Virus record (IMG/VR): IMGVR_UViG_3300035130_000173
Span: 1-46,218 of that record
Origin: a virus
Direction: 5' to 3' (one strand)
Length of the DNA stretch: 46,218 bases
Shown: positions 40,792 to 43,009 of the stretch, in pieces
Position numbering within the stretch: the first letter of the stretch is position 1
How the letters are laid out: each line of letters begins with the position of its first letter
Notes under the pieces: generated by a model
Databases searched by the model: none
What the model was told of the DNA's origin: nothing
What the model saw: the letters and a program-made list of their open reading frames with translations, nothing else
Made by a program: the position numbers and the translations under genes

Positions 40792-40864
40792 GATATTTAA
40801 AAAGCATACTAAAATTTATATAGAGCATATAAGAGATAAGATTATGTCAGAGTTTTATTTTTAA
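40760..40864 (+). CDS. Possible small basic peptide, or first exon of the metallophosphoesterase
   Basis: A 34-codon frame from TTG at 40760, very basic, ending at the TAA at 40862-40864, the first bases of the structured element. An internal ATG at 40844 would give MSEFYF. If the structured element were an intron, this could supply the start codon missing from the downstream metallophosphoesterase. Otherwise it is a minor peptide. Confidence 0.3.
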   Translation: MKKIIKIIINKIFKKHTKIYIEHIRDKIMSEFYF

Positions 40865-41183
40865 CTTGCCCCATATGGTGGGTAAAGTATAAAGACTTCG
40901 GTCTGAAGACTGGATTAGCTATCCTACGCCCACCGTAGCAGTTTAGGTCGTTCTGCTATAACAAAAACTTCCGGAATAATAGGTTGGCGGTGGGGTAGCT
41001 CCTCTTAAATATCCTGTTGGTAATCGTAAGTACCGCAAAAACCGCCAGTAGACTATGAACGGGTTGGCTGGTAATTCGGAGTAACAGCGAATAACGTAAA
41101 AACGGATAGGCGGAATAATCCGATATATTCCCGGTGGGGTTTCTATCCGAACCTAACACAAAACCAGCCATTTATAATTCAAC
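40865..41183 (+). ncRNA. Large structured RNA element, unknown class
   Basis: About 320 bases, GC-richer than the flanks, with many helices visible by eye: GGTGGGT/GCCCACC (40877-40883, 40928-40934) enclosing a UUCG hairpin AGAC/GTCT (40893-40904) and GGAT/ATCC (40912-40924); TAGCAG/CTGCTA (40936-40941, 40953-40958); TGGCGGT/ACCGCCA (40985-40991, 41041-41047) enclosing GGGG/CTCC and GGTA/TACC hairpins; GGCTGG/CCAGCC (41066-41071, 41164-41169) enclosing CGGATAG/CTATCCG (41103-41109, 41143-41149). No plus-strand gene fits here. It ends at the ribosome site of a metallophosphoesterase lacking a normal start codon. Could be a self-splicing intron, a large 5' regulator or a free ncRNA. Confidence 0.65.
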
Positions 41184-41195
41184 AGGGAGGTTCTC

Positions 41196-42308: not shown

Positions 42309-42539
42309 ATGGATAATATAGTATTAGACTTTGCAACAATAGCAATAATTACAATAGCCATAATAAATAGAATAAAGTCAGAGTTACCTGAAATCAAACC
42401 TATATTTTATACCCTTATGTCGGTAGTGGTAGGTGCTGGATTGTATGCAGTCAGTATCTATGCGAGCGATACAGTTATGGGATTTATATTTGCGGGCTTG
42501 ATTGCAAGCGGTATCTATGATGTCTACAAAAAACAATAG
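42309..42539 (+). CDS. Small two-helix membrane protein, holin candidate
   Basis: 76 residues with two or three hydrophobic segments (FATIAIITIAIIN, FYTLMSVVVGAGLYAVSIYA, VMGFIFAGLIASGIY) and a basic end (DVYKKQ). AAGGAGGTG ribosome site. It sits after the lysis genes; class II-type holin topology is plausible and would complement the XhlA-like protein. Confidence 0.65.
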   Translation: MDNIVLDFATIAIITIAIINRIKSELPEIKPIFYTLMSVVVGAGLYAVSIYASDTVMGFIFAGLIASGIYDVYKKQ

Positions 42540-42555
42540 TAATTTTTATTTGATT

Positions 42556-42564
42556 TGATATAAT
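42556..42564 (+). promoter_or_regulatory. Extended -10 promoter of the tRNA-like ncRNA
   Basis: TGA-TATAAT (42556-42564) is an extended -10; no convincing -35 is present. Transcription would start near 42571, at the beginning of the hairpin-rich element. Confidence 0.5.
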
Positions 42565-42565
42565 T

Positions 42566-42740
42566 AAGATGTTACTAGTAATATCTTCATGGGTATTACC
42601 TCTGGGCGTGTCCAAGTTCGGGTAGATATATTGGTGTCAGGTTACCTGATAGCCATTATATTTATCAACAGGAGTGTAATTCTCCTCACGTCCACCACTT
42701 AGGGATAGTATATTAATTTATGCTATCCCTATTTTTTTTT
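42566..42740 (+). ncRNA. Small ncRNA with tRNA-like acceptor/T half and encoded CCA
   Basis: The unit has its own promoter and terminator. After a 9-bp hairpin (42566-42574/42579-42587) comes a tRNA-like part, 42604-42697: acceptor strands GGGCGTG and CACGTCC (42604-42610, 42687-42693; one G-U) followed by discriminator A and CCA (42694-42697); T stem AGGAG/CTCCT with a 7-base loop (42670-42686), joined to the acceptor exactly as in tRNA. The D-like arm (CCAA/TTGG) has a long loop, and the anticodon position is a 9-bp hairpin with a UUA loop (42633-42654). U33, A14 and the T-loop UUC are missing, so it is not a standard tRNA. It may be a decayed or repurposed tRNA. Confidence 0.6.
42701..42740 (+). 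terminator. Strong rho-independent terminator
   Basis: An 8-bp stem AGGGATAG/CTATCCCT (42701-42708, 42723-42730), 14-base loop and nine T (42732-42740). It ends the tRNA-like RNA three bases after its CCA. Confidence 0.9.
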
Positions 42741-42761: not shown

Positions 42762-42789
42762 TTGACAAGTTAAAAATAATCTTTATAAT
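42762..42789 (+). promoter_or_regulatory. Consensus promoter for the repressor gene (leaderless)
   Basis: TTGACA (42762-42767), 16 bases, TATAAT (42784-42789): a perfect pair of boxes. The ATG at 42797 is 7 bases after the -10, so the mRNA probably starts at the start codon, as CI mRNA does from lambda PRM. Confidence 0.85.
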
Positions 42790-42796
42790 AAAAACT

Positions 42797-43009
42797 ATGA
42801 ATAATTTAAATGAAATTTTATATCAGAAGCGTATTACTAAATCAGACCTCGCAAGAGCCTTAAACGTAAGTAGACAACGTGTTAATAATTGGACACAAAA
42901 TAAAAACTATCCCCAAAAAAAATATATTAAATTAATATCAAATTTTTTGGGAGTATCAATAGAAAGGCTGTTTTATAATGAAGATAATATTGGTGAAGAA
43001 AGGAGATAA
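42797..43009 (+). CDS. Cro/CI-like helix-turn-helix regulator
   Basis: 70 residues from ATG at 42797; the upstream in-frame ATG (42746) lies before the promoter and is rejected. ITKSDLARALNVSRQRVNNW is a standard XRE helix-turn-helix, followed by LISNFLGVSIERLFY. It probably controls the early operon or its own promoter. With no integrase, it may act as an immunity or timing repressor. Confidence 0.8.
   Translation: MNNLNEILYQKRITKSDLARALNVSRQRVNNWTQNKNYPQKKYIKLISNFLGVSIERLFYNEDNIGEERR

Follow-up and report, generated by a model that had tools for sequence, protein, structure and literature searches.

A conserved phage RNA gene with an architecture like the TLD of tmRNA, a candidate decoy of trans-translation

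What is a phage RNA that has the acceptor stem, T arm and CCA end of a tRNA and no anticodon arm? Such an RNA is encoded in a 46,218-nt stretch of phage DNA (IMGVR_UViG_3300035130_000173), which was analysed as a whole and is referred to here as the window. Terminase, portal, capsid and holin genes mark the window as DNA of a tailed phage. Identity of its terminase to those of gut Oscillospirales, Erysipelothrix and streptococcal phages does not exceed ~55%, and the host is therefore probably a Bacillota; a metallophosphoesterase search for a host genome gave no match. A preliminary description of the locus had reported an acceptor helix, a T arm and a CCA end with exact tRNA spacing. These elements are present as described, and the bounds of the RNA were corrected to 42604-42697 (94 nt). 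Its parts are listed below together with their counterparts in two further phage records, L040 and L038 (IMGVR_UViG_3300008517_000033).

42604..42697 (+), tRNA-like RNA, tmRNA-TLD-like in architecture; fold z = -5.0, TLD model 28.4 bits, same-fold homologue at L040:4744-4838
42604..42610 (+), acceptor stem 5' strand GGGCGTG; G3 (42606) opposite U70 (42691); identical in L040, one base deleted in L038
42611..42620 (+), D-loop without a stem, 10 nt, TCCAAGTTCG; 9/10 identical to L040, partial match to tmRNA GG-N-TTCG-AC
42621..42666 (+), long interrupted hairpin in the place of the anticodon arm (H2/P2-like); 10 bp, a mismatch, and a 10-bp apical stem with a triloop
42667..42669 (+), linker AAC to the T arm, 3 nt; identical in L040, GAC in tmRNA
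42670..42686 (+), T arm AGGAG-TGTAATT-CTCCT, 5 bp and 7 nt, with a non-canonical T-loop; 3/5 pairs double-changed relative to L040, pairing kept
42687..42697 (+), acceptor 3' strand CACGTCC (42687-42693) and ACCA (42694-42697; A73 and encoded CCA); identical in L040 and L038

The two acceptor strands (42604-42610/42687-42693, GGGCGTG/CACGTCC) pair at 7/7 positions, and the T arm abuts the acceptor directly. The RNA has an MFE of -35.7 kcal/mol; its z-score of -5.0 for 42604-42697 falls to -5.9 with one base more, and no shuffled sequence was as stable. The anticodon and D regions are non-canonical, as had been noticed earlier, yet the middle is not random and consists of the stemless 10-nt D-loop followed by the 10 bp + 10 bp interrupted hairpin. 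Neither ARAGORN nor Rfam, its tRNA model RF00005 included, made a call on the window RNA, and a cloverleaf with D and anticodon arms is absent by both ARAGORN and the fold. The bare pattern of a 7-bp acceptor, a T arm and CCA within 60-140 nt turned up ~1.25 times per shuffled window on both strands; restricted to a GG start and G3.U70, it turned up ~0.007 times. Geometric tRNA spacing alone is common, and it is a homologue that establishes the RNA as real.

This homologue was found by a search with the HTH gene that follows the RNA. L040 is a different phage, with a metallophosphoesterase and a holin unlike those of the window, and its RNA (L040:4744-4838) occupies the same place between the holin and HTH genes. 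It begins GGGCGTGTCCAGGTTCGGGCAG, ends CACGTCCACCA and folds into the architecture of the window RNA. Acceptor and linker are identical in the two RNAs and the D-loop agrees at nine of ten positions. The T stem differs on both sides in three of its five pairs, all still paired; in the lower 10-bp helix three pairs are double-changed and three single-changed, all to standard pairs, while the apical hairpin has been rewritten. Since the changes are compensatory and the D-loop, linker and acceptor sequences are kept, both the fold and those sequences appear to be under selection. Covariation, which the preliminary description had proposed to look for in the acceptor and T stems, is thus seen in the T stem; the acceptor, being identical, shows no change. 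The syntenic homologue with its compensatory changes in T stem and central helix supports the earlier view that the RNA is a dedicated mimic of tRNA whose acceptor and T stems are genuine, and we conclude that 42604-42697 is a real, conserved RNA gene. A decayed class II tRNA, also proposed earlier, is a poor fit, since the diverged phages share D-loop, linker and acceptor and both copies lack a D stem and an anticodon loop.

A third copy of the RNA was found in L038 by a search with the upstream metallophosphoesterase gene. It has the same 3' half, lacks one base of the acceptor (GGGC-TG) and has lost the predicted fold, and may be decaying. A recombinant origin of its 5' half was considered and rejected in favour of a one-base deletion plus substitutions. 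The window and L040 hold the only two intact copies known. Scanning the viral collection for exact sequences and gapped patterns returned L040 as the sole true homologue, the other matches being chance coding or unrelated DNA, and a BLAST search of phage and plasmid records with the RNA gave no match. Directly upstream of the TLD-like RNA in L038 lies an orphan abiF-like RNA with its own terminator (L038:7744-7780; RF03085, 21.3 bits, E 0.23, below the cut-off); the record contains no Abi_2 toxin gene. This abiF-like RNA might represent an antitoxin mimic that the phage carries to counter AbiF.

The RNA gene adjoins the lysis genes, in the following surroundings.

42309..42539 (+), upstream neighbour, holin-like gene; PHROG 1299 E = 7e-5
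42556..42564 (+), possible extended -10 promoter TGATATAAT (TG-A-TATAAT) without a -35; seen by eye in the sequence, no scored promoter-scan hit
42700..42740 (+), intrinsic terminator, 13-pair stem and T tract; clear in the window, with an equivalent of different sequence in L040
42799..43009 (+), downstream neighbour, small HTH regulator gene; HTH_3 E = 2e-9

The unit had been credited with its own -10 promoter and terminator. The terminator stands and recurs in L040. The promoter is less certain: the extended -10 was recognised by eye, the scanner reported near the RNA a weak 9/12 site at chance level, and L040 has no equivalent upstream of its RNA, so that the RNA may just as well be transcribed by read-through from the holin operon. 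In L040 and L038 the RNA is likewise followed by an HTH gene, whose product is 72% identical. A perfect promoter (TTGACA-16-TATAAT, 12/12; window 42762-42799, ending at 42789) precedes the HTH start by ~10 nt in both the window and L040, and the HTH regulator mRNA is therefore probably leaderless. Among the neighbouring genes examined, no integrase lies beside the RNA, and an SmpB gene was found in none of the three phage records (window, L040, L038). In the window (40840-41190) and in L038 (5685-5980), GC-richer non-coding stretches of ~300 nt with many inverted repeats precede the metallophosphoesterase gene; the two stretches cannot be aligned with each other, have fold z-scores of -0.7 and -2.3, and match nothing in Rfam.

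G3.U70 together with A73 is the signal read by alanyl-tRNA synthetase. Both identity elements are present in the window RNA and in L040. The tRNA-like domain (TLD) of tmRNA, the ribosome-rescue RNA of bacteria, is characterized by a reduced stemless D-loop, a T arm, a long disrupted H2 helix and alanine-only charging (PMC3968760). The TLD of bacterial tmRNA (ssrA; RF00023) shares with the present RNA the 7-bp acceptor with G3.U70, A73 and CCA, the T arm, the short stemless D-loop, H2 and a 3-nt linker ending in AC. The architecture of the present RNA follows this plan, with the 7-bp acceptor, the reduced D-loop, the long disrupted helix and the T arm. The present RNA differs from bacterial tmRNA in having no mRNA-like domain, resume codon or pseudoknots; with 94-95 nt and a terminator directly 3', it has neither a tag reading frame nor the 230-400 nt of a full tmRNA. 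Compared with tRNA-Ala and tRNA in general (RF00005), acceptor identity, T arm and CCA are common to both, and the D stem and anticodon arm are missing in the present RNA.

For a quantitative comparison, 68 true tmRNAs were collected and a covariance model was built from their TLDs; G3.U70 and A73 are present in 68/68 of the tmRNAs checked. The model gave 28.4 bits for the window RNA, 28.1 for L040 and 18.2 for L038, in a range where ordinary tRNAs score 17-33, and in a genome-wide search the window RNA was missed by the first-pass filter. In Rfam, the L040 RNA matched positions 1-374 of tmRNA (RF00023), the mRNA part being deleted, at 23.5 bits and E 3e-6, ranked above tRNA and below the cut-off of 47 bits. 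In a control with RF00023 on five genomes, tRNA-sized matches that are evidently ordinary tRNAs reached 18-34 bits. The L040 hit was accordingly rejected as proof of tmRNA descent, and neither the RF00023 nor the TLD scores prove such descent, because ordinary tRNAs score as well.

The D-loop reads GG.UUCGGG in the present RNA and GGNUUCGAC in tmRNA; the motif GGNTTCGAC is absent, its place being taken by GGTTCGGGC in L040 and L038 and by AGTTCGGGT in the window, and the GAC that invariably follows TTC in tmRNA is missing from the D-loop. Real tmRNAs score 7.3 or more on the D-loop, and the best value here was -2; against shuffles, p was 0.02 in the case of L040 and L038 and 0.18 in that of the window. 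The linker GAC is likewise invariant in tmRNA alignments. The T-loop is UUCGAUU in L040 and L038 (canonical, UUCRAUN) and differs in the window copy, where UGUAAUU lacks U55 and C56, residues normally used for the D/T-loop contact needed for SmpB. When 84,980 genomes were scanned for TLD-only RNAs whose loops follow the canonical tmRNA pattern, five hits emerged, none of them a TLD on inspection. On sequence and predicted fold, the architecture fits a TLD, not a tRNA, and descent from tmRNA is not demonstrated.

A precedent for an isolated TLD is on record. Mycobacterium phage DS6A (tmID 11587) encodes a TLD-only tmRNA (PMC4131195, Table 2), and the passages of PMC4131195 and PMC11915505 that cite Mao et al. 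2009 report that the DS6A RNA or a similar molecule inhibits tmRNA in E. coli; according to the same passage of PMC4131195, a similar molecule, chargeable or not, perhaps titrates SmpB. Compared with DS6A, which was considered by its description only, the present RNA comes from another host group (AT-rich, probably Bacillota phage) and has a long extra hairpin. CDS-less tmRNAs of ~65 bp are also described from Mallomonadaceae plastids (PMC11915505); these are tag-less and tRNA-sized like the present RNA, and unlike it are organellar, shorter and without a link to phages. We also observed a 102-nt tRNA-like RNA in an unrelated GC-rich phage (IMGVR_UViG_3300031820_000022, L062:3241-3342 (-)), with the acceptor GGGCGTG/CACGTCC, G3.U70, A73, a canonical T arm, CCA and a long hairpin without an anticodon loop (RF00005 24.5 bits, below the cut-off; fold z -3.5). 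Separately, Alcaligenes phage QDWS595 and Pseudomonas phage PA_L9 were found to carry unannotated permuted two-piece beta-type tmRNA genes (RF04321, 111 and 116 bits).

What was observed is the gene with its fold and alanine identity elements, and the fact that a second phage has kept it. For its function we tentatively favour, at somewhat below an even chance and by analogy, that the RNA is built like an isolated tmRNA TLD and acts as a trans-translation decoy toward SmpB, AlaRS or EF-Tu. RNase P would cut at 42603/42604 to form the 5' end, removal of the 3' trailer would expose the CCA, and AlaRS could then attach alanine. The RNA would be bound by EF-Tu and by SmpB, a protein that ordinarily takes the position left vacant by the absent anticodon arm. 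The RNA might titrate SmpB (and AlaRS or EF-Tu) or occupy stalled ribosomes while offering no template, and host trans-translation would be lowered, presumably late in infection. The DS6A precedent makes an alanine-chargeable decoy the most economical mechanism. Caution is called for because D/T-loop contact is required for SmpB binding (PMC3968760) and the T-loop of the window copy is altered. Sequestration of EF-Tu, AlaRS or CCA-recognising enzymes, raised in the preliminary description, is possible; a decoy for anticodon nucleases, called attractive there, finds no support, as the RNA lacks the anticodon arm that such enzymes would cut.

A decoy of a different kind appears fairly unlikely. 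The acceptor/T half and CCA could serve as a tRNA-end decoy or substitute that absorbs CCA-cutting Cas12a3 or CCA-modifying toxins, leaving trans-translation untouched. Cas12a3 recognises no more of a tRNA than the acceptor stem, the CCA tail and the T-arm backbone, and minimal substrates of acceptor and CCA are cleaved by it (PMC12851939); the RNA keeps exactly those parts, and the position of the L038 copy beside the orphan abiF-like RNA suggests a counter-defence locus. However, this reading does not account for G3.U70 and the D-loop being so strictly conserved, nor for why the long helix is needed.

It is unlikely that the RNA arose independently from a tRNA, alanine or class II, and converged on the TLD plan; it would then function as a trans-translation decoy or as another tRNA mimic. 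The stretch GGGTAGA/GGGCAGG looks like the D-loop of a tRNA (GG-Y-A-G) and the tmRNA-specific D-loop residues are missing, but no copy has a D stem or an anticodon arm, and the spacing and the AC linker are TLD-like. Lower still we place a functionless relic, either a decaying tRNA or a tmRNA fragment captured at an attachment site. The deleted acceptor base and lost fold of L038 and the aberrant T-loop of the window would suit such a relic, whereas the fold is maintained by compensatory changes over strong divergence, D-loop, terminator and position are conserved, and the genes examined beside the RNA include no integrase. Like the relic, non-ribosomal or regulatory use of alanine is less likely than a decoy: an alanine-accepting RNA for, e.g., Ala-tRNA-dependent lipid or peptidoglycan modification, comparable to cell-wall tRNAs, would account for the AlaRS identity elements and for the altered T-loop (elbow) of the window, which would suit EF-Tu avoidance, but is improbable given that the window proteins scanned with Pfam (part of the ORFs) include no aminoacyl-tRNA-using enzyme.

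In the literature covered, DS6A is the only phage on record with a tag-less TLD-only tmRNA; the family described here is a second, diverged one. RNAs of this kind are already known and scarcely documented, and the function of the present one is what we infer by reasoning. It is conceivable, though we would not count on it, that several phage lineages carry TLD-like decoy RNAs that, during lysis, shut off trans-translation or soak up immunity directed at tRNA ends; the AT-rich family would then be a second, independently evolved branch beside DS6A, and such RNAs would have gone unrecognised because gene finders discard them. The present family supplies a sequence pattern with which more of them can be sought. 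The fixed place by the lysis genes and the retained alanine identity suggest that phages gain from an RNA that acts as a decoy in ribosome rescue or in the recognition of tRNA ends.
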